Below are positions 23,639 to 49,191 of a stretch of DNA of 64,000 nt, in pieces. The DNA is taken from the NCBI GenBank assembly GCA_008501765.1, contig QQUE01000014.1:62001-126000 (forward strand), written 5' to 3'. A model generated the notes under the pieces. It was not told the origin of the DNA and made no database searches. It worked only from the letters and a program-made list of their open reading frames with translations. Origin of the DNA: Calditrichota bacterium. Its GTDB lineage: Bacteria; Zhuqueibacterota; Zhuqueibacteria; Zhuqueibacterales; Geothermadaptataceae. The position numbers were made by a program, and so were the translations under genes. Position 1 is the first letter of the stretch. Each line of letters begins with the position of its first letter.

Positions 23639-26542
23639 TTAAAAATCCCAACCAAAGAAGAACTGCCGCCACCATTTATTCGGGAATGAAAATGTGTCTG
23701 GTCCCAGTCCGGCGTCAAGTTCGTTGACAGAAAATCGCCGCCCGACATCGTAGCGGAGAACCAGAAATCCGCCAAGGCGCAAACGCGCACCAAAGCCATA
23801 ACTGCCGCGAATATCTTCCAGAGAATCGTTCCAGGCATTGCCGGCATCGACAAAAAAAGCACCGCGTATGGCGTTGAATCCCAGGCCGCCAAACGGAAAT
23901 GAGACCGAAAATCGATCGATAAACGGCACCCGTAACTCCTGGCTGACAAGAAACAGTTTGTGACCCCAAATCGTCCAACGGGGGTAAAGACGTAAATCCC
24001 AACTGCCGCCCATAAAAAAGTCACGCGCTTCTTTTCCACGGTTCATGGCTGTGTATAAACGGGCTGCGTAAGAAACCCGATTCGAGATACGCAAATAACG
24101 ACGGTAATCAGCCATTATCGTATAAAAATTTACATTGGAATCGCGGATATCGACCGTATTCCCCAGCGTAAATGAAAAACGCTCGCCATCGACCGGACCA
24201 CTGGGGCCCCAGAGAGAATTATCTTTTGTCCAACTGACAAAATTAGAGACGAGCAATCCTTTAATTTCTTCCGAGCCAAATCGCGTTTTATCCGATTGGC
24301 GAATATTTATTGAGGCTTCCGCCCGTTGAAAAATTGACAGCGGGTAACTCAACGATGCAAAACCGCCGAACCGCCGCTCATAAAAAAAGCTTTCCGAGCG
24401 ATTGTAATAATTTCCGGCAAAATGATACAGCCCATAAGCTGTGTTCATGCGGTGGCTCAAATCGATTTTTGTAACCGCGACATTAAAACTTTTCAGCATT
24501 TCATCCCGTGTTGTCGCCGTATTGTAGATCAAAAAATAATATTTATGATTCCCGAGCATATCACTCATGGCGAGCTGGGCGCCGCCTGAAGTGCCAAAAA
24601 GTGGATCCTGGGTTACCTGGCTCTGGGCAATATCCAGGGAGAATTTCTTCTGATAAGCCAGGCTTGAAGTCGAGGCCACGGCGGAAATCTTCGTTGGTTG
24701 CCAGCGGCTCGCCACTTTGTGCAATTTATCCGGTTGCTGAATTTCAGCATCTTTTAATAAAACATTGATGTCTTCAATTTTCCTTAACTGGAATGAAAAT
24801 TTTTCAAAACCGGTAAAAAGCAACGAATTATCGCCCATCCATTCGGGATCGAATGCGCCGGTGATATAATCTGTGACTTTTTGTAGACGATGATCGGCGT
24901 CGACAGCGCTCGGGAAAGGGGCCTGCGGTAGTTTGAACACATCACCATTAGACAAATTAGAGGCGAGTTTCAGGCTCTCGTCTGGGATTTGCAGCAACCA
25001 AATATTAAATGCCCCGTCCCGGTCAGAAGTAAATGCAATGGACAGTCCATCGGGTGACCACGCAGGCGTCATATCGTTTGATTCACTATTGGTTATGTAA
25101 GAAATATCCCCTGTACGTACATCGTACATAAATATATTATACAGCCCGTTCTGGCCCTCGGGCGCTCGATCCGAGCTAAACGCAATAAATTTTCCATCCG
25201 GTGACCAGGCAGGATCACGATCATCGTAAAAATCATTGGTTAATTTTTGCAGGTCCTGACTGGCAAAATTATAGGTGTACAAATCACTCTTGCCACTAAA
25301 ATTCACCCCGGTAAAAACAACACTTTCATCATCGGGATGCCAGTTCGGGGAGAGAATGGTTACGATATTGTCGAACTGCAAACGATTTTGTATTTTGCCG
25401 TTATCGAGATCACACTTATAAAGCGCATCTTTGCCGTAACTCTTGGCAACAAATACCAGCTCCCCATGTTGATTGGCATCTATTTTACTTTTTAGCAGAT
25501 TAAACGCTTCAAATTTACTCGACCTCTCCCCTTTTACGACTACTTCGAGATTTTTGCCTTTCCCCTGCGAAGTCGCATCGATGGAGTAAATATTGGAATA
25601 GCCAATCCTGTTTGAGACAAATGCAATTTTCTCTTTGCCATTATAATTGCAATAGGTTGGCTTCGTGTTAATGCCCTTCTTTGTCAAACGGTCGGTTACC
25701 ATACCCGGCATATCGTTTTCATCAATTATCGGGTATTTTGATTTTTTCAGAGAATAGAGCCATAATTCGTCAAACTTTTCATAATCCACGCCCAAAGTGT
25801 ACTTCATCACCTCGGAAAAACTTTCAGACATCCAAACATTTTGCATGAGCTGCAGAAGCTTTTCTTCGCCAAACCTCTGGCTGATAAACCGGCAAACAGC
25901 CTGGCCTTCCTTGTACATCAAAAATGTACCAAAAATGCGGTACATCCGCGACAACGGCACGATATACCCGGTGATGACGGCATCACGGATAAACATTTCT
26001 GCTTCGGTATCCCAGCCTTCCGACCAATATTCTGCGATGCCTTCGGTAAACCAAAGCGGCAGGCCCGGGTAGTTCGTTTTGCGATGATCTTTCAGGGTAC
26101 GGTTGATCAGGCTGTGTGTAAAAACATGCACCAGTTCGTGGTTTATAACATGCCGGAATTTATAGAGCGAACCGTCGGATGGAATGACAACGCGACCTTT
26201 CATGAACTCAAAAAAGCCGCCAACTCCATGGGGAATGAGATTTGGGATCGTGTTGGTTTGTTGAAAATGAAGATGATTGGAGTAAAAAATTAACGGGATG
26301 CGACGTGGAACATTTTGATTGTATTTAATCATCAACCGGTCGTACGCATTTTCAGCATACGAAGCACCGATCTCCGCCAACTCCTGCATTTCAGGATAAT
26401 AATAAATATCAAAATGTTCTGTTTTTAGAATATGCCAGTCAAAATCATCATATTGGACTTTGTTTCTTCCAAAATAATATTGAGCATCGGCATTGTGAGT
26501 AATTCCGGCTGCAAGCAAAATCCATAAAAAAATACGCCTCAT
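23639..26542 (-). CDS. Peptidase-MA / TolB propeller / outer-membrane barrel fusion
   Basis: A 967-residue envelope protein in three parts. After a signal peptide (1-20) comes a gluzincin-like peptidase domain (about 30-260) with zinc motif HELVH (135-139) and downstream Glu167 in WFTEGIAEYWSEG. Next are TolB/WD40-like propeller repeats (about 280-570) of the form 'WSPDGKFIAFSSDR'. The C-terminal third (about 640-967) looks like an Omp85/surface-antigen beta-barrel, with GGLGFNAIRGAFFVDAGNAWNDS and a final aromatic FFFGWDF. This would anchor a periplasmic or surface protease to the outer membrane. A paralogue with the same order lies at 41.3-44.3 kb. Substrate unknown. Confidence 0.75.
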   Translation of the reverse strand: MRRIFLWILLAAGITHNADAQYYFGRNKVQYDDFDWHILKTEHFDIYYYPEMQELAEIGASYAENAYDRLMIKYNQNVPRRIPLIFYSNHLHFQQTNTIPNLIPHGVGGFFEFMKGRVVIPSDGSLYKFRHVINHELVHVFTHSLINRTLKDHRKTNYPGLPLWFTEGIAEYWSEGWDTEAEMFIRDAVITGYIVPLSRMYRIFGTFLMYKEGQAVCRFISQRFGEEKLLQLMQNVWMSESFSEVMKYTLGVDYEKFDELWLYSLKKSKYPIIDENDMPGMVTDRLTKKGINTKPTYCNYNGKEKIAFVSNRIGYSNIYSIDATSQGKGKNLEVVVKGERSSKFEAFNLLKSKIDANQHGELVFVAKSYGKDALYKCDLDNGKIQNRLQFDNIVTILSPNWHPDDESVVFTGVNFSGKSDLYTYNFASQDLQKLTNDFYDDRDPAWSPDGKFIAFSSDRAPEGQNGLYNIFMYDVRTGDISYITNSESNDMTPAWSPDGLSIAFTSDRDGAFNIWLLQIPDESLKLASNLSNGDVFKLPQAPFPSAVDADHRLQKVTDYITGAFDPEWMGDNSLLFTGFEKFSFQLRKIEDINVLLKDAEIQQPDKLHKVASRWQPTKISAVASTSSLAYQKKFSLDIAQSQVTQDPLFGTSGGAQLAMSDMLGNHKYYFLIYNTATTRDEMLKSFNVAVTKIDLSHRMNTAYGLYHFAGNYYNRSESFFYERRFGGFASLSYPLSIFQRAEASINIRQSDKTRFGSEEIKGLLVSNFVSWTKDNSLWGPSGPVDGERFSFTLGNTVDIRDSNVNFYTIMADYRRYLRISNRVSYAARLYTAMNRGKEARDFFMGGSWDLRLYPRWTIWGHKLFLVSQELRVPFIDRFSVSFPFGGLGFNAIRGAFFVDAGNAWNDSLEDIRGSYGFGARLRLGGFLVLRYDVGRRFSVNELDAGLGPDTFSFPNKWWRQFFFGWDF

Positions 26543-39780: not shown

Positions 39781-40503
39781 TTAAAACGACACCTTCAGAT
39801 TTAAGACGCCCCCTTTTAGACGCGAAACCGGCCGAAAAGCTAGGACATAATTTTTTTGAATCGAGGCTACTTTGCCTTGTTTGCGCTTCAGCCACAACGC
39901 ATGCAAAGCACTGACAACATGATTGGTGATCACACCCGCAACGGCAAACTGGCTCCATGTTTTTGCCTTGTCGCTATCAATGCGCATTTCGCGGTATTTT
40001 TGGGCATTTTCCAGATCATCCCACTCCCAAAACTCGCCGCCATCCGGATCGCGCAAATTATCGAGGCTGCGACGGCGCAACCAGCTTTCGTTGTATTCAT
40101 AAACCGAAAGATAATCACCGATATCTGCCCAGAAAACAGCATCTTTTCCAGCCGGTTCGGCTTGCGCGTGCGAAGATGCAAAAGCGATATAATCATCCTG
40201 CAGCCAATCCTGATAGGTTGAAAAACCGATGGCAGAGCCTAATAATATTGCCTCTGAAATGAGAAAATTGCGTTTGGCTTTTTTCGCTCCCAACGCGTGC
40301 TGCCCCCAGCCCGGAAATAACAGCGATTTGAAAAATACCGCGCCGCCACCCGGTGATTTCTGGCCTGAAAATTCAGATTGAATTTCCTGATTTGCACCCG
40401 CCACGATCCGTTGCTTTTGAAAAGAATTTTCCAAAGTCTGGGCATTAATAATAATGGGCACAATTGCCAATAATAGGCCGAACTTTATTTTTGATTTTAC
40501 CAC
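39781..40503 (-). CDS. DUF5683-like envelope protein (second of a pair)
   Basis: A 240-residue exported protein of unknown function: signal peptide (about 1-22, ending IINAQ), the motif SLLFPGWGQHALGAKKAKRNFLISEAILLGSAIG (about 59-92), a charged middle with Tyr/Trp-rich helices, and a second hydrophobic stretch (about 183-200) FAVAGVITNHVVSALHALW. The 'LFPGxGQ' motif is typical of DUF5683-type proteins in the FCB group. The GTG start overlaps the end of the upstream paralogue by 7 nt, with GAGG before it. It forms a translationally coupled pair with that paralogue. Confidence 0.65.
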   Translation of the reverse strand: MVKSKIKFGLLLAIVPIIINAQTLENSFQKQRIVAGANQEIQSEFSGQKSPGGGAVFFKSLLFPGWGQHALGAKKAKRNFLISEAILLGSAIGFSTYQDWLQDDYIAFASSHAQAEPAGKDAVFWADIGDYLSVYEYNESWLRRRSLDNLRDPDGGEFWEWDDLENAQKYREMRIDSDKAKTWSQFAVAGVITNHVVSALHALWLKRKQGKVASIQKNYVLAFRPVSRLKGGVLNLKVSF

Positions 40504-41285
40504 GATAACCTCATCGAAAGTGCAGGAACAAAATCGTTCGCGCCTGTTTTTTGGGGGACTATTTTCATGGAAGCCTGCAATCCGTTGTTTTGTTTGTGAG
40601 CCGTGTAACCGGCCTCGAGTGCACTCAAAACATGGTTCACCATCACGATGGAAATGGCCATTCCGGCCCGGTTGAAAGCATCGTTGCTGTCCTTGCGGAT
40701 AAATGTGTATTCTTCCCGCAATTCACTGTCGCGGCCAAAATCGGATAAGGCGTCATCCCAGCCGGAATTGAATTGATCGTATTTACCTATATTTTCGTAG
40801 TAAGTCTGGTTTCGTCTTTCAGGCAAATGGTGGCTCCAGCGGCCGGATTCATATTCACGCAGGGCTTCCATATCGCTTCTTTTCTCGCCAGAAACCGCAG
40901 CCAATGCGTCCCAGTAACGGGATTCGACCCAATGGTTATCGGCAAATGTTTCGTAAAGGGCTTCGTACTCATTGCCTTTGTCATTTTGATCAATGTAATA
41001 AAAAATACTCGCCAACTCGACCGCAAAAAAAGCCAGTCCACGATACTTGTTTTTATTATACAACTGTCCTGTTCCCGGAATAATTGCAGAAAAAAGGAAG
41101 GCTTTTAAAGCGCGATTATTTCCAGTAAAGCCCTGTTTTTCTTGCGGCAAATTTGTACTCGGATTTGCAGAATTTATACGAAATCGCCTGGGTGCTCCTT
41201 CTCCAGGCAATTCCCCGCCAAAGCAATTACCTACGCTCATCGCAAGCAGGAAAATAAAAACAGTTAAAATTCGTGCTGATTTCAT
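40497..41285 (-). CDS. DUF5683-like envelope protein (first of a pair)
   Basis: A 262-residue exported protein with a signal peptide (about 1-22) and the same architecture as the next gene: FLFSAIIPGTGQLYNKNKYRGLAFFAVELASIFYYI (about 68-103), a middle of YEALYETFADNHWVESRYWDALAA type repeats, and AGMAISIVMVNHVLSALEAGY (about 205-225). The two share the 'PGxGQ' and 'NHVxSALxA' motifs, so they are paralogues. AAGGGCACGGT precedes the ATG. It lies 15 bp after the Peptidase-MA/propeller/barrel gene, so the two small proteins may act with that large protein; function is otherwise unknown. Confidence 0.65.
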   Translation of the reverse strand: MKSARILTVFIFLLAMSVGNCFGGELPGEGAPRRFRINSANPSTNLPQEKQGFTGNNRALKAFLFSAIIPGTGQLYNKNKYRGLAFFAVELASIFYYIDQNDKGNEYEALYETFADNHWVESRYWDALAAVSGEKRSDMEALREYESGRWSHHLPERRNQTYYENIGKYDQFNSGWDDALSDFGRDSELREEYTFIRKDSNDAFNRAGMAISIVMVNHVLSALEAGYTAHKQNNGLQASMKIVPQKTGANDFVPALSMRLSW

Positions 41286-41300: not shown

Positions 41301-44300
41301 TTAATCAAAATAATCGAAAGTAATGCCAAAATAGTAGCGCCATTCTTTGCCATAAGTTATACCGCGGTTTTGAAATTCATCCAGGCCGTAGGCGGCATCA
41401 AAAAACAGTTTTGTTGGATAGCCGTAAAACGAAAACATTTCCAATCGCAATTGGGTTCCAACCGACCGTTTGAAGTCTTTAAGTTCGATTGAATCTTCAA
41501 CAAAGGCGTTGCCATAGTCGGCAAAAATGCCAACATAAAATTTATCGAAATAAATCTGTGCCAGTGATTTGTCAATGTTCCAAAAGAGCGGCAAGCGATA
41601 AGCGAGCGTGGTGAGAATACTTTTTCGCCCTTCGATTGAATAAAAAGGGTAGCCGCGATTGCCATCCAGGCCGCCATTATAGAGATTGTAAAAACTGTCT
41701 ACTTCACGATCGATAAAGCCGCCTTTAAATCGCAAATAGAGAGAATGCTTTTTCCACAGCCCGAGGTATTCCTTCCAATCAATATTAATCTCATTATAAT
41801 TATAATCTGTGTACACTTCCTGTACCGTGCCAAAGCTAGAATTCACTTCAAAACCATCGATGAACGAATTGGATTGCGCGCGGTGCATCAAAGTGACGGC
41901 GCGTCCCGCCCGTGGGTTAGCCGAAGCATCGATAGCCGGTGCGATGCCGAAATATTCATAACGCGTTTGAATCCCACGGCCAATGTGATAAGTGTAGCCA
42001 AATGAATAAGGTTTTGCATCTTGGGTATATGAATTAATTTTTGCATTGTACTGACCGTAATTGAGGGCGACTTCAAGATTGTGACCGGGAAATAACCTAT
42101 GCCGCATACCCAGGTAAATTTCAGTTAAGTTGTAACGGAATTTATCTTTTTTATCCCGCAAACTTGGGTAAGGATTATTCTCTTCGGTATTTCGGCGCTG
42201 GTTGTAGGCCTCAAGAAATAGCGTTGGACCAAATTTATTGTAATTAACCAAACCAAACGCGTCGAGATCAAATTTTGAATTGACGCCGAAGCCACCCAAA
42301 ACATTGTAATTATCTAACAAATCGCTGGAGAAAAAATAAGAGCCTAGTTTGGTGGTGCCGTAATCCCGCACGACGCGGGGAATCAGACTAAAAGCGCTAT
42401 AGCGGTTTTGATAGGGTTTAATCTCAGCAGCCGGCAATTTCTTATCATCATAATTTGGCGCAGCGATCCCGTTCAAATTCATTGCGGCAAGCTGATCGGT
42501 GAGCAATTCTGTAGCCGGTTTTGAGCGAAACTTTTGGTAAGTTGTCAGGCTCTTTTCGATGGGCTGCGGCTTGTTTATCTTCGCAATTTTATAGCCATCT
42601 GCGACGAAAAGCGAATAAATCAGTATTCCGTCGGCACTGATGTCTGGCATGAAAGCGCCACCGACGACATTGGTGAGTTGAGCTATTTCGCCGGTCTGCA
42701 AGTCTTTGCTGTAAATATTAAAAATACCACTGCGGTCCGAGGCAAAATACACTTTTTTGCCATCGCGCGCCCAGATGCCATCACGATTATCAGGGCCGGT
42801 AGCCGCGATTATTTCGACTTTTTTATCGGCCAAGTGCATGACTCGCAGGCTGCGACCTTCACCCGGGGTAAACGAAAAAAGAATCGACATCCCGTCCGGC
42901 GACCAGCGCGGGTAATAAACTTGTTCCCCATTTTTAAACTGCGTCAGCCGCTCGACTTCTTTTGTTTTCAAATTTATAACAGCGAGATTTTGCGTGCCAT
43001 CACCATTTATAACAAAGGCGGCTTTTTTTGCATCAGGTGAAAAAGCTGGGCTGTGACCGCGCAACTTTTTCGTGAGGCGGGTATTTTTCTTTTTATTTAA
43101 ATCGTATAAATAGAGATCAAACAGGCGTGAACCATGTTTTGTTTTATTTTTCTGGCTGGAATAAATAAACGAAGTGCCGTCTTTTGACCAGTCAAACGCC
43201 TGATTAGCACCGCCGGCCAATACTTTTTTCTTGTTTGTAACCATGTCGCGCAGCACCAGTGAAGACAGCGAAATGTAGTCGCTTCCTCCGGTTGAAATAT
43301 ACGCAATTGTGCGCCCGTCATCCGACCAGCGGGGATAAAAATTTCCGATACCATTCGGCTCAATAATTTCGCCTTCAACTTTATTTTTATTAATAAATTG
43401 CAGGCTGTTAGCATAATGTTTTTCAAGATGGATTTTCCACTCGTCATAAAGTGTTTGCCCGTCTTTCCCGGTGGCCACTTTCAATGCCCGTGAAAAAGAA
43501 TATTGCGTTTTTTTCGCCATGGCATCTGTGGCTTTTTTTAACGACTCAAGGCCATAATTTTCTGCAAGATACGTGGAAAACGAGAATCCCTGATTGTAAG
43601 CTCTTTCGTTGCCAATGCTGTTCTTGCCGAAACTGCTCATTTGGCCCAAAGTCAAAATCTTTTTGTCGACTGCGGCTGTGCGTAGAAGCATGTCGCGGTG
43701 GCTGTCCCAGTGCTCGTATTTCAGGCCGGGAATTTGATATTGCGCCACGCCTTCTGCAAACCAGCTCGGCATCACAGTGAAGGCAATGGGATAGGAAACG
43801 ATGGTATTGGGGTAGCCGTAAAGGACATCCGGGCGTTTTTCTTTTTCGTAGCCGATCCACTGCAGATAAGCTGCCGGCACTTTGCGCGAAAATTTGCGTG
43901 CAGCCTGCAATTGTATCATGTGGGTGTACTCGTGGGTTATGACGTTGCGCAGCCAGTCGTGGGTGCCACGCAGTTCAAAAGACATCGAGCTGGCCCAGAT
44001 TTCAACTTTATTGTCGTAATAATAAGCTGCGCCGTTGGAATAATCATCGTGGTCACGCACGATAAAATTTGTTTTTTCCGGTGGAGTAAATCCATAAAGT
44101 GCAGTGATTGGCCCGTGCACGTCTTCAGCGACTTTGGCGATCACTTTGGCAGTTCGTTCGGCACCTTCGTGATAATGGAGAACAAAATGCTCGGTTTCGA
44201 AAGAATACCACTGCAATTCCGGGTGGTTGTGCACTTCCCAAAAATATGAGGTGAGATGAGAGTGGTTTTGATGGGCAACCTGGGCACCGGCAAAACTCAT

Positions 44301-44333
44301 ATTTAAAAAAAGAAAAACTAAAATCCGTTTCAA
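41301..44333 (-). CDS. Second Peptidase-MA / TolB propeller / barrel fusion
   Basis: A 1010-residue envelope protein in the same order as the one at 23.6 kb: signal peptide (about 1-17), gluzincin-like domain with zinc motif HEYTH (134-138) and Glu194 in WFAEGVAQY, TolB-like blades (about 330-600, for example WSPDGMSILFSF and SPDAKKAAFVINGDG), and a C-terminal barrel (about 660-1010) with GFGVNSKFDLDAFGLVNY, GLDGNRGYPFY and the final aromatic YYFGITFDYFD. The start is TTG with AAAGGA eight bases upstream. It heads an operon with two DUF5683-like proteins, rpiA and an RmlD-like gene. The active-site residues appear intact; substrate unknown. Confidence 0.74.
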   Translation of the reverse strand: MKRILVFLFLNMSFAGAQVAHQNHSHLTSYFWEVHNHPELQWYSFETEHFVLHYHEGAERTAKVIAKVAEDVHGPITALYGFTPPEKTNFIVRDHDDYSNGAAYYYDNKVEIWASSMSFELRGTHDWLRNVITHEYTHMIQLQAARKFSRKVPAAYLQWIGYEKEKRPDVLYGYPNTIVSYPIAFTVMPSWFAEGVAQYQIPGLKYEHWDSHRDMLLRTAAVDKKILTLGQMSSFGKNSIGNERAYNQGFSFSTYLAENYGLESLKKATDAMAKKTQYSFSRALKVATGKDGQTLYDEWKIHLEKHYANSLQFINKNKVEGEIIEPNGIGNFYPRWSDDGRTIAYISTGGSDYISLSSLVLRDMVTNKKKVLAGGANQAFDWSKDGTSFIYSSQKNKTKHGSRLFDLYLYDLNKKKNTRLTKKLRGHSPAFSPDAKKAAFVINGDGTQNLAVINLKTKEVERLTQFKNGEQVYYPRWSPDGMSILFSFTPGEGRSLRVMHLADKKVEIIAATGPDNRDGIWARDGKKVYFASDRSGIFNIYSKDLQTGEIAQLTNVVGGAFMPDISADGILIYSLFVADGYKIAKINKPQPIEKSLTTYQKFRSKPATELLTDQLAAMNLNGIAAPNYDDKKLPAAEIKPYQNRYSAFSLIPRVVRDYGTTKLGSYFFSSDLLDNYNVLGGFGVNSKFDLDAFGLVNYNKFGPTLFLEAYNQRRNTEENNPYPSLRDKKDKFRYNLTEIYLGMRHRLFPGHNLEVALNYGQYNAKINSYTQDAKPYSFGYTYHIGRGIQTRYEYFGIAPAIDASANPRAGRAVTLMHRAQSNSFIDGFEVNSSFGTVQEVYTDYNYNEINIDWKEYLGLWKKHSLYLRFKGGFIDREVDSFYNLYNGGLDGNRGYPFYSIEGRKSILTTLAYRLPLFWNIDKSLAQIYFDKFYVGIFADYGNAFVEDSIELKDFKRSVGTQLRLEMFSFYGYPTKLFFDAAYGLDEFQNRGITYGKEWRYYFGITFDYFD

Positions 44334-44682: not shown

Positions 44683-47600
44683 TTATTTTATAACTGAAAT
44701 CTTGAATATAGCAACGCCGTTTTTACTGCTGCTTTTCGCTTCAATTCGCGCCATGTAAACGCCATTCTGTATTCCGCTCACATTCCATTGCACCTCATTA
44801 TCCACATCGCCATTGCCAGTACCCGGAAATTCATCCACCAGATCACCAGCCAGATCAAATATTTTGATTGAAATAGTGGCATCTTCCGCTAGCCGGTAGC
44901 GAATTGTCGTCAAACTGCCTTCAGTTGGGTTGGGATAATTGTAAGCATACTTTTCTGGCAACAAATCTCCGTCAATATTTTGGGGAGTTCGTTGAATTGT
45001 ATTTGAGCGTGTATGGTGACGATTGCCGCCGTAATTTAACCAGGCATGGTCACCGTCTTTGGCTACGCCTGAAATGTCAAATGCGTGCAGAAATCCATCA
45101 GAAGAAACGGCCAGAATTTCCAGCTCACCGTCGTTATCGATATCGCCGGCTGTCGGGCTTTGAATTACCCCCCCGGCGAAAGCAACCGGAAAACCATCGA
45201 TGATAGCGCCGTTGTCGATGCCCCACAAATCGTCTTCAGCTCCAACAATAAATATTTCCTGCGCTGCGTCATTGTCTATATTTAACAAAAGAGGTTCTGC
45301 ATCATAGATTAAACCAATGGATTCCAGCAACAGCTTTTTTGATGAGGCAGGGAAGCTGCCGATTTTTAAGGGGAAATTTTCTATTACTGCACCGGTATTA
45401 TTAAATGCTGTTATGTAATTGCCCGTAGTTAATACAACGTCGTGGCGGCCATCCCCATCGACATCACCGATTGCGATTCGACTCTCAGCAAATTTTTCGT
45501 CCAATTGGACTGATATTTCATCATTTTCATTTAGAAAAAACAGTTCACTGTCTGTGTTAACGGCCAAACCAAAAGGCCCACTGGCGACACTTCTTCCTGG
45601 GCCAGAAAAAGAAAAAACAAAGCTATTTGCATCGTGGAGCATTTCGTCGGAAAGCAAATAAAATGATGTATTGGCATGCGCTAAATCGACGACTTCATCT
45701 TGCAATGTAAGCGAACTGACGACGTTTCCAGCACCATCGATGGTGATCAATTTATCTGTGGCAAAATGGATATTTCCATTAACAAAAGTCAGCGCCGATG
45801 AAGTTTTAAATCCCAAGTTCAAATCCCATAAAACATCAAATTGATTATCGCCATTCAAATCCTGGGTTTGATAGGCTTTTAAAGCACCGTTCGATGAACA
45901 GAAAATAAATTCGTCCCGCCCGTCAGCATTCAAATCGGCAACGACGGGATAGCTGAACGGTCGATCATTTAAAACCAGAGCTTCCGGAATTTCATAAACG
46001 CGCTGCTCATTGCCTGGTGATTCAACGATAACTTGTTTCGTTGTATTCAGCATCGGTGAACCATCGCCATGCCAGGCTAAAACCTGGTTTTCATTTGTAA
46101 AAACCAATGTTTCCTCACCAATATAAAGCGGATCGAACTCACCAACGACTGGCGGAAAAATGGCCGTGCCGGAAAATGCCGGAAATCCAGTTACATGCAA
46201 ATCGCGGCTGAGGGAAAATGACATAATCGGCTGAATCGCACTGATATCATCAATCACGATACCGGAGTTTGCCATGGAATTGCTGCGGGATGATGGCCTG
46301 GTATTAGGGCCAAACTGAATTTTATCATTATCATTTGCTTCTAAATTGACTGTATTGCTATCGAACCAGGCATCAGCCCACCAGCCGTTTTCCGTGCCGG
46401 AACCAGGATGGAGAAAATCATAAAAATAACCAAAATCCTGCGCGACATCCGCTTCTTCGAGATCGACTCCGCGATTATTTCGATCTGCGTTTATGCGATT
46501 TTCAGCGATTTTATCACGAATAACTGCATCGTTTATGTGCCAAATCAAAATGCCAGAACCCGGAAGTCCAAAATCGTACTCGTCGACTGAAGTGATAACA
46601 CCGATAACTTCGTTGGAAACAAGCTGTCCGTTCAAATTAAATTCAACCCGATTTCCATTGCTGTCAAATCCGATGGCGATGCTGTCGCGGTTGACATCCT
46701 GCTGTCTGTTTTCAACAAGAAAATACTCATCGTTTGTGATTGGAATTTTATAAATCCGGTTAGGAAAATCAGCCCTTGCCGCCCCAACCTGGAAATTCGT
46801 TCCTTGTTCGATGACGATCGGTTTTTCCCAGCCCATAAAAACTTTTTCCCAGGCATTCGGCTCAGCCGGCAGCAAACCGACGGCGTTGCCGGAACCCTGA
46901 TCCATCAAACCCCAGCGGCCGATTCCTGTGCCGCCCGTTTCAGGATCGAATAAGCTGGGCAGGCCGAGCTGGAAACCCATCATTATTGTCATCGTTCCCA
47001 GCAGGCCAATTTCAAAACCTTCCTGGCTTTCAGTTTCTGGTAAAATCAAGCCATTGCGAATAAAATAGGCGCCATTATTCACACCAATTCCCTGATAGGT
47101 GGCATCTTCAGGGCCGAACTCCTTTTTTAAATCTTCAAAGCGCAAAAAAACTGAGGTGATGTCATTGGGTGTCGGATCGAAATCAAAATTGATGTCATTC
47201 CCTACCCCGGCGTGAAAAAGGATGAAACTGTCATAGCGGCTGAAATCGATGGATTCATTTTGATCAGCCTGTAAAAATCCGTCACGAAATAATTCTGCTA
47301 ACCGCGTATCCACCAACGGGGAACCGTCGTTGGGTGCGTAATAGAGAATATCGTTGGATACTTTAAAGGCATCGTTTGTATTTGATGGATAAACATCCCA
47401 GGTCAAAATTTGCTTGTTGTTGGAGACAGTTTTATAATAATTGGCTAATGCTTGCAGTTGATCTTCAAAATAGGTGCGATCGTGGGGGGAAGGATCCACA
47501 GTTGGCTCCGCAGGCGAGGATAAATCAAACGAACCGTCGCCGGTCGTCGCGCTTAAGGTATCCGGTTCAAATTCAACTCGAATTGCTAAAATTCGCAGTG

Positions 47601-47778
47601 TATCGGCTTCGGCCAGAGTTTCAGGATTTGATGTGTAGCGATAATAATTTTGCAGAACGACGTGCGATTCCGGCATGCCACTTAATTTTAATGCACCACT
47701 TTTAACAACATTGTCTTGCGCTCCGCTGCTGTTGAATATAGATGAACTCAAAAACATCAGAAAAAAAAGTTTTTTCAT
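44683..47778 (-). CDS. M6 metalloprotease-like T9SS substrate lacking the zinc motif
   Basis: Secreted 1031-residue protein. Order: signal peptide (1-20), M6-like domain (about 60-420), FG-GAP/integrin-type calcium-binding repeats (about 600-930, with ADLNADGRDE, GDVDGDGRHD and GDIDNDGELE), and a C-terminal type IX sorting domain (about 950-1031, YNYPNP to the terminal KISVIK). The M6 fold marks are clear: LGLPSLFDPE then GTGIGRWGLMDQGS. But the HExxH zinc site that should precede LGLP is I265-M-M-G-F269, so both His and the catalytic Glu are missing and the protein is unlikely to be a protease. PorV, the T9SS shuttle-type protein, is encoded just upstream. A binding or structural role is inferred. 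Confidence 0.8.
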   Translation of the reverse strand: MKKLFFLMFLSSSIFNSSGAQDNVVKSGALKLSGMPESHVVLQNYYRYTSNPETLAEADTLRILAIRVEFEPDTLSATTGDGSFDLSSPAEPTVDPSPHDRTYFEDQLQALANYYKTVSNNKQILTWDVYPSNTNDAFKVSNDILYYAPNDGSPLVDTRLAELFRDGFLQADQNESIDFSRYDSFILFHAGVGNDINFDFDPTPNDITSVFLRFEDLKKEFGPEDATYQGIGVNNGAYFIRNGLILPETESQEGFEIGLLGTMTIMMGFQLGLPSLFDPETGGTGIGRWGLMDQGSGNAVGLLPAEPNAWEKVFMGWEKPIVIEQGTNFQVGAARADFPNRIYKIPITNDEYFLVENRQQDVNRDSIAIGFDSNGNRVEFNLNGQLVSNEVIGVITSVDEYDFGLPGSGILIWHINDAVIRDKIAENRINADRNNRGVDLEEADVAQDFGYFYDFLHPGSGTENGWWADAWFDSNTVNLEANDNDKIQFGPNTRPSSRSNSMANSGIVIDDISAIQPIMSFSLSRDLHVTGFPAFSGTAIFPPVVGEFDPLYIGEETLVFTNENQVLAWHGDGSPMLNTTKQVIVESPGNEQRVYEIPEALVLNDRPFSYPVVADLNADGRDEFIFCSSNGALKAYQTQDLNGDNQFDVLWDLNLGFKTSSALTFVNGNIHFATDKLITIDGAGNVVSSLTLQDEVVDLAHANTSFYLLSDEMLHDANSFVFSFSGPGRSVASGPFGLAVNTDSELFFLNENDEISVQLDEKFAESRIAIGDVDGDGRHDVVLTTGNYITAFNNTGAVIENFPLKIGSFPASSKKLLLESIGLIYDAEPLLLNIDNDAAQEIFIVGAEDDLWGIDNGAIIDGFPVAFAGGVIQSPTAGDIDNDGELEILAVSSDGFLHAFDISGVAKDGDHAWLNYGGNRHHTRSNTIQRTPQNIDGDLLPEKYAYNYPNPTEGSLTTIRYRLAEDATISIKIFDLAGDLVDEFPGTGNGDVDNEVQWNVSGIQNGVYMARIEAKSSSKNGVAIFKISVIK

Positions 47779-47811
47779 CGCGTAGTCCCGCTAAAAATTG
47801 ATGGCGATATG

Positions 47812-47844
47812 AAAAAGGGTGAATCTTGTTTCATATCACCCTTT
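47812..47844 (-). terminator. Hairpin between porV and the M6-like gene
   Basis: Minus strand: AAAGGGTGA, a loop of about 13 nt, TCACCCTTT, then TTC. A perfect 9-bp stem with a short T-run lies 34 nt past the porV stop and about 35 nt before the next start. It may partly terminate porV transcripts or stabilise their 3' end. Confidence 0.55.
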
Positions 47845-47877
47845 ATCGATTTCGCATCATTTATACATGGTAATTTA

Positions 47878-48945
47878 TCAGAAGTTAAAAGCTAGAGAAA
47901 ACTGGATCGTATCAGCGAGTGGGTGGCCTTCTTCCAAAGGTGAAATATAGGCAGCATCGATAAACAGACTGGCGTATTTTAGACCGGCGCCAAAAGTCAA
48001 ATAACGAACCTTGCCGATGTCGTCATGATGGAATCCCGTGCGCATTGCAATCATATCACCGTACCAATATTCAGCACCAATATTTGCGATGACCCGCTTC
48101 AATTCGGTGTTCATATCTTCATCAAACAGTGACGAATAAATAGCTTTATAAAAGGGATCCGACTTGGTTTCGTCATTTTCATCCTGATAGCGGCGGACGA
48201 GTAACTTGTCAAACTCGACTGCCAGGCTTAAACGATTGAATTCGTCATCCAGCACTTTGTAGGAAAGTCCAACGCGCAAATTGGTTGGAAGTGGGTCTGC
48301 CTGGGCTTTGTCGATATATGTTACTTTTGGTCCCATATTGGCGATATTGATGCCAAAATTCAGGCGATCGAAGAGCAAATCCTTGTAAAGATAGCCAATG
48401 TCGAAGGCAAAGGCGTTGGCAGAACCATCTCCTTTTTGAGAAGTATTATTAAGCTCCGGAGCAAGGTTACTGCGAATATATTTCAGTTGCAGGCCGATGC
48501 CAGAACTTTCCGTGAGCATCGTTCCAAATGAGGTAGAAATTGCAAATTCACTCGAAACAAATGTGCCGGTCGGAATCGGGCTGTTTTCACTTGTGATGGC
48601 TTGCTCGCCAAGATTGAGATATGTTACGGAAGCGCCAAAGGTTCCAAGTCCTTCAATTTGTTGAATATAGGTTACGTAGTCATAAAAGAGATCAGAAGCC
48701 AGTTGTGGCAACCAATTGGAGTGCATAACCGAAATTTGACGTTGTTTTTGGAACGCAAGGCCTGCAGGATTCCAGTAAGTGGCAGTCGCATCATCTGCGA
48801 TAGAAACGAATGCTTCGCCCATGCCTGTAGCGCGCGCGCCGGGTGTAATCAGTAGAAACTGTACTGTCGCTTCGCTCTGCGCGAAGAGATTTTGAGATGT
48901 GATAGCTCCTGTTAGCATCAGGATAAGAGCTATTCCTTTTTTCAT
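47878..48945 (-). CDS. porV: PorV/LptO-family outer-membrane protein
   Basis: Outer-membrane beta-barrel of 355 residues of the PorV/PorQ family. In type IX secretion PorV receives cargo leaving the translocon and delivers it to the attachment complex (family knowledge from Bacteroidetes). Signal peptide (1-22), then the hallmark N-terminal FLLITPGARATGMGEAFVSIADDATATYWNPAGLAF (about 30-65). The C-terminus FGAGLKYASLFIDAAYISPLEEGHPLADTIQFSLAFNF is typical. GGAGGTAAATA precedes the ATG. It sits directly upstream of a T9SS substrate. Some members are general FadL-like porins, so a dedicated T9SS role is likely rather than proven. Confidence 0.85.
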   Translation of the reverse strand: MKKGIALILMLTGAITSQNLFAQSEATVQFLLITPGARATGMGEAFVSIADDATATYWNPAGLAFQKQRQISVMHSNWLPQLASDLFYDYVTYIQQIEGLGTFGASVTYLNLGEQAITSENSPIPTGTFVSSEFAISTSFGTMLTESSGIGLQLKYIRSNLAPELNNTSQKGDGSANAFAFDIGYLYKDLLFDRLNFGINIANMGPKVTYIDKAQADPLPTNLRVGLSYKVLDDEFNRLSLAVEFDKLLVRRYQDENDETKSDPFYKAIYSSLFDEDMNTELKRVIANIGAEYWYGDMIAMRTGFHHDDIGKVRYLTFGAGLKYASLFIDAAYISPLEEGHPLADTIQFSLAFNF

Positions 48946-49162: not shown

Positions 49163-49191
49163 ATAATATACAAATTCACTAAAAATGTCAA
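49163..49191 (-). promoter_or_regulatory. Canonical sigma-70-like promoter upstream of porV
   Basis: Minus strand: TTGACA (49186-49191), a 17-nt spacer, TATTAT (49163-49168). Transcription would begin near 49156, giving a leader of about 210 nt before porV. The 430-bp gap between gcvH and porV has no gene. Confidence 0.6.

Follow-up and report, generated by a model that had tools for sequence, protein, structure and literature searches.

A porV-linked M6 metalloprotease-like protein without its zinc site, a possible surface subunit of type IX secretion in Calditrichota

The gene directly downstream of porV in a Calditrichota bacterium encodes a 1031-residue protein, here M6i, which has the fold of an M6 metalloprotease but lacks both HExxH histidines, the catalytic Glu and the Asp ligand. 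The site is gone in all class orthologues aligned, and the surrounding domain, the C-terminal sorting domain and the place after porV are conserved. We give about an even chance to the reading that M6i is a dedicated non-catalytic surface subunit, held by PorV, of the PorU-PorV module of the type IX secretion system (T9SS). The window, which means the whole 64,000-nucleotide stretch that was analysed, comes from a genome of 5.9 Mb whose nearest named relatives are KSB1 and Caldithrix. The features of the locus, in the order of transcription and in coordinates of the window, are as follows.

49163..49191, minus strand: promoter-like TTGACA-17-TATTAT upstream of porV (consensus match only; the count of such sites is not above that in shuffles)
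47878..48945, minus strand: porV, T9SS outer-membrane shuttle upstream of M6i, 355 aa (NF033710 268.2 bits, cut-off 250)
about 47814..47844, minus strand: hairpin between porV and M6i, 9 bp stem and 13 nt loop (-26.7 kcal/mol, z -3.1)
44683..47778, minus strand: M6i, pseudo-M6 protein, T9SS cargo or component, 1031 aa (NF052323 588.4 bits, TIGR03296 72.5 bits, Por_Secre_tail)
46189..47631, minus strand: M6/InhA2-like domain, residues 50-530 (AlphaFold model and match to 4yu5/4yu6)
46972..46986, minus strand: degenerate HExxH, IMMGF, residues 265-269 (alignments)
46945..46968, minus strand: LGLPSLFD, residues 271-278, with Ser275 in place of the Asp ligand of HExxHxxGxxD (alignments)
46903..46926, minus strand: GIGRWGLM, residues 285-292, Met-turn region (alignment)
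45067..46206, minus strand: beta-propeller region with FG-GAP repeats, residues 525-904 (Pfam match and whole-length model)
44683..44964, minus strand: type A T9SS C-terminal domain (CTD), residues 939-1031, with the stop codon (Pfam and NCBIfam profiles)
41301..44333, minus strand: MA2_PD40, gluzincin-type HEYTH and WFAEG with a TolB-like propeller, next after M6i (profiles, motif)
40497..41285, minus strand: DUF5683 protein, after MA2_PD40 (PF18935, 34.9 bits)
39781..40503, minus strand: second small conserved protein, labelled DUF5683b by its position in the block only (no Pfam match)

A conserved M6 fold without its zinc site

A sequence-only reading of this DNA had described IMMGF where HExxH was expected, intact LGLPSLFD and GIGRWGLM, FG-GAP repeats and a T9SS sorting tail, and all of these were found again in the 1031-aa open reading frame. 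The FG-GAP match (33.1 bits, cut-off 22.1) and the type A CTD (Por_Secre_tail PF18962 36.1 bits, cut-off 27; TIGR04183 34.2 bits, cut-off 23) were both above the profile thresholds, the start of the protein resembles a signal peptide, and Met292 of GIGRWGLM was invariant in an alignment of 101 sequences.

A fold search with the whole-length model (pLDDT 76.9), in which the propeller at 525-904 dominates, returned mostly propeller matches and was uninformative on the M6 part; its top Foldseek match was PorZ (5m11), with poor superposition. So the M6 domain was modelled alone with AlphaFold from 55 sequences, which gave a pLDDT of 92.6 and a pTM of 0.92. The best solved match was the InhA2 zymogen 4yu5 (Z 23.3, 372 residues, 3.6 A), which indicated the fold of peptidase family M6, and matches beyond 4yu5 and 4yu6 had Z of 9.5 or less. 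The N-terminal half of M6i shares with the InhA2/M6 peptidases the fold, the Met-turn and several structural motifs, but HExxHxxGxxD is replaced and a propeller and a T9SS CTD are fused to the domain. Judged from the model, what M6i has lost is protease chemistry, and the structure is kept.

We take M6 peptidases to carry the HEXXHXXGXXD pattern, at which M6i reads IMMGF..LGLPS; the third zinc ligand, the Asp of GLPD, is thus also lost (Ser275), which goes beyond the earlier reading. HEXXHXXGXXD is described as the Asp-zincin pattern (PMC3890501). The TIGR03296 score of M6i is below the 110.8 bits set for an active M6 protein, and a second M6 protein of the same genome, serving as internal control, reads HEFGHALGLPD. 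HExxH and the Asp ligand were missing in M6i and in 20 of 20 aligned class orthologues, two congeners included, so the loss is lineage-wide, as the alignment proposed earlier was meant to find out, and indeed far wider than the lineage. Among these 20, the first two motif positions were hydrophobic or neutral throughout and Gly268 was invariant, and the last position was Phe, Tyr, Ser, Asn or Ala, with His still present in some.

Sequencing or base-calling error and pseudogene formation were rejected as causes of the loss, because the frame is open, the site state is common to the congeners and no other segment of the protein is as well conserved. Local sequence error beside intact close homologues, named earlier as the refuting case, is therefore ruled out, and intact homologues at the locus were found only in other phyla. 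We consider it very improbable that M6i remains an enzyme working by an unusual mechanism or metal site. In favour of this, hardly any sequence departs from His189 or His414, and some homologues without the site retain one or two of the old histidines. Against it, the two conserved residues are not part of the HExxH site and are matched by counterparts in the intact M6 protein of the same genome, and at the former ligand positions hydrophobic and small residues replace one another freely.

Mean pairwise identity within the class was 67% for residues 255-320 around the dead site, the top segment of the protein, and was 56% for residues 51-420 of the M6 domain, 52% for the CTD and 24-32% for the propeller. 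By alignment, the M6 domain is plainly under strong selection. The CTD is conserved about as well as that of PorU (52% vs 50%; the catalytic part of PorU gave 46% in ten relatives), a comparison that is rough because the genome sets differ, and the paralogous cargo CTDs of the M6i genome average 37%.

Gene order and the type IX secretion genes

The gap between porV and M6i is 99 bp and contains the hairpin, in agreement with the earlier description of a gene that follows porV with only a hairpin between, and the hairpin may be a terminator splitting the two genes. The arrangement is widespread: porV stood directly upstream of the M6 gene, on the same strand, in 184 of 191 sampled loci from many lineages of the FCB superphylum, and in all 20 class loci. 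A genome-contig scan gave 80 M6 loci labelled KSB1, Ignavibacteria, Kryptonia, Marinimicrobia, Zixibacteria, Gemmatimonadota, Delongbacteria, Balneolales, LCP-89, Eisenbacteria and others. Every one of the 20 class loci has the order porV-M6-gluzincin-DUF5683, as do most of the 80 whose contig is long enough. Outside the class of M6i the usual order is porU-porV-M6, and in all five loci tested, which include two from Zixibacteria or Eisenbacteria, the ORF upstream of porV was PorU (523-976 bits). Within the class, accB-accC-gcvH usually stands upstream of porV and porU lies elsewhere in the genome. At one locus (L061, G049:C1:176329-178179) the M6 orthologue is split by a single in-frame TGA.

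The M6i type is already covered by an NCBI-curated family, NF052323 T9SSA_dep_M6i ("T9SS-dependent M6-like inactivated metalloprotease"), with which M6i shares the architecture, the M6-like domain without HExxH and the type A CTD. The match had an E value of 2.8e-176, but its 588.4 bits were below the cut-off of 600, so M6i is formally not an equivalog; by locus and tree it is orthologous to this type. Matches to NF052323, mostly long or full-length, occurred in 82 of 82 genomes of the phylum, 26 of them over the cut-off. Most same-locus orthologues of the phylum thus fall below 600, and automatic annotation will miss them. In an even draw from the phylum of a Balneolales locus, 110 of 296 genomes were over the cut-off. 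A full-length copy was absent from most Bacteroidota genomes sampled, which means that T9SS as such needs no M6i.

The genome of M6i encodes PorU (845 bits), PorV, SprA (738 bits) and PorZ (269.5 bits, a separate gene at G000:C14:174289-176562), and together with the type A CTD this supports, by sequence, the proposed secretion by type IX. The genome also has 21 PorV/PorQ-family proteins over the cut-off. PorZ (5m11, NF052228) resembles M6i in combining propeller and CTD and is part of the surface T9SS complex, but it has two propellers and no M6 domain, and a profile search with M6i gave no match to NF052228 (PorZ threshold, more than 260 bits). Replacement of PorZ by M6i was rejected, since PorZ coexists with M6i in its genome, passes the cut-off in 44 of 60 relatives, and does so too in many Bacteroidota genomes that carry the M6 protein as well. 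Replacement of PorU was rejected as well, with PorU above cut-off at another locus in 54 of 60 relatives. In several relatives (G035, G038, G057, G008 and G012), two PorU genes that each exceed the sortase cut-off lie near one another.

M6i might instead be an ordinary abundant surface protein or adhesin, which PorV only delivers and whose pseudo-cleft binds an outside ligand. FG-GAP propellers are known in adhesins and lectins, lectins were among the profile matches, and the genome encodes many further type A CTD proteins. However, ligand-binding adhesins are usually fast-diverging and mobile, and the M6 gene stays after porV across many FCB lineages; the propeller, presumably the outer module, is also the least conserved part of M6i. 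So we regard the adhesin reading as rather doubtful. Conservation of the porV-M6 pair across many FCB lineages is easier to explain if M6i is a dedicated subunit or partner than if it is one of many cargoes that happens to be abundant.

Intact relatives and the neighbouring gluzincin

An M6 gene of the M6i type was found in nearly all of 132 genomes from the phylum of a Zixibacteria locus (G083), and every locus taken from these genomes that aligned at the motif read HE[FY][GS]H...D. These Zixibacterial proteins occupy the same place and have the same domains as M6i, and are orthologous to it by tree and gene order, but their zinc site (HEFGH...D) is intact and no gluzincin gene is adjacent. 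The intact site also occurred in Eisenbacteria, in Aegiribacteria and in three records whose titles name no phylum. The earlier view of M6i as a former secreted protease is thus well supported by the M6/InhA2 fold, the absence of catalytic residues and the intact same-locus relatives in other phyla. The motif is HQFAH or HQFGH in two KSB1-like records and KLFGH in one further record; these are possible intermediates and, as such, would suggest an early loss of the catalytic Glu.

Some loci of the sample are of unusual build. At L292 (G206:C1) the motif was unaligned, the ORF has about 1500 aa with an N-terminal part that is not M6-like and resembles another enzyme, and a search for porV upstream of this ORF found none. 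The PorV ORFs of some Zixibacteria loci (L169:3061-5820; L223-L302) have about 900 aa, and that of L169 has a LysM domain and a Reg_prop repeat in addition to PorV, which would fit a shuttle attached to peptidoglycan.

The gluzincin MA2_PD40 was found directly after M6 in 93 loci lacking the zinc site by script, or 94 counting L159, which the script missed since its overlap was barely above the script limit. It was absent from all 73 informative loci where M6 is intact; there, M6 usually runs straight into DUF5683. Five or six loci without the site had no adjacent gluzincin (L142, L147, L178, L313, L315 and L321, the flank of L142 being short), and HExxH was intact in every gluzincin copy inspected. 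Fisher's test gave p 2e-40, a value that we do not count as evidence, since the loci compared are related to each other and one or two changes suffice on the trees. In the mixture-model tree of 48 domains, a branch with support 74 has all sequences lacking the site on the same side; the simpler tree of 93 domains needed two changes because two Gemmatimonadota sequences were set apart. Mutual exclusion of intact M6 and an adjacent gluzincin is therefore suggestive, not proof. Elsewhere in the window, 23639-26542 (minus strand) encodes a second gluzincin-propeller protein, whose layout resembles MA2_PD40 and whose Omp85-type C-terminus is over the Pfam threshold.

These counts bear on another reading, in which M6i is a pseudo-protease that serves the neighbouring gluzincin as regulator, chaperone or substrate adaptor, catalysis having been lost when the gluzincin joined the operon. 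The gluzincin neighbour at 94 loci and the intact gluzincin site speak for it, but the loci lacking both the M6 site and an adjacent gluzincin do not fit, and because the site was lost independently only once or twice, the loci are not independent observations in a statistical sense. We consider this reading unlikely.

A possible role at the cell surface

In Porphyromonas gingivalis, PorU, PorV, PorQ and PorZ form a 440 kDa complex, in which PorV and PorQ anchor the CTD proteins PorU and PorZ (PMC5562754). Proteins with a type A CTD are picked up by PorV; for type B cargo, the gene is often a neighbour of the gene for its own shuttle (PMC12618676). By analogy, when the gene for a CTD protein lies immediately downstream of porV and is retained in many lineages, its product is probably a lasting PorV partner. 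Under the subunit reading, an ancestral M6 (InhA-type) metalloprotease would have shared one operon with the sortase PorU and the shuttle PorV, then lost its zinc site and been kept as a non-catalytic surface protein. M6i would be exported via Sec and then through SprA by its type A CTD, captured by PorV, and retained at the cell surface with its CTD in place, like PorU and PorZ. The conserved pseudo-active cleft suggests that M6i binds a polypeptide, which may be a partner or a secreted one, and the propeller would be a variable outer module. Retention, binding and subunit status are what we infer from the fold, the CTD, the gene order and the conservation. Against the subunit reading, gene order could reflect co-regulation of one favoured cargo; the position of porU in the M6i class, the lack of a full-length copy in most Bacteroidota genomes sampled and a terminator between porV and M6i would point the same way. 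A surface binding or structural function, as first proposed, is plausible, and the further idea of a major PorV client lies outside what sequence can show.

A broader version is tentative: M6 would be an FCB-wide T9SS surface (PorU-PorV) subunit, catalytic in Zixibacteria and a few relatives, and in the main FCB branch proteolysis would have passed to the recruited gluzincin-propeller neighbour, M6 staying as scaffold or substrate receptor. Literature searches on T9SS with M6, InhA or these lineages, covering open-licence papers, returned nothing on the porV-M6 pair, and the porU-porV-linked M6 gene in many FCB lineages, its intact form in Zixibacteria and the gluzincin exclusion appear to be new here.

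T9SS was worked out in Bacteroidia, and if the subunit reading is true, the surface end of the system has a component that may be missing from most model organisms, and the role of the M6 pseudo-protease before the loss can be read from its intact form in Zixibacteria. HEFGH, HQFGH, KLFGH and IMMGF make up a natural series of metalloprotease site loss, in which the rest of the domain remains strongly constrained.
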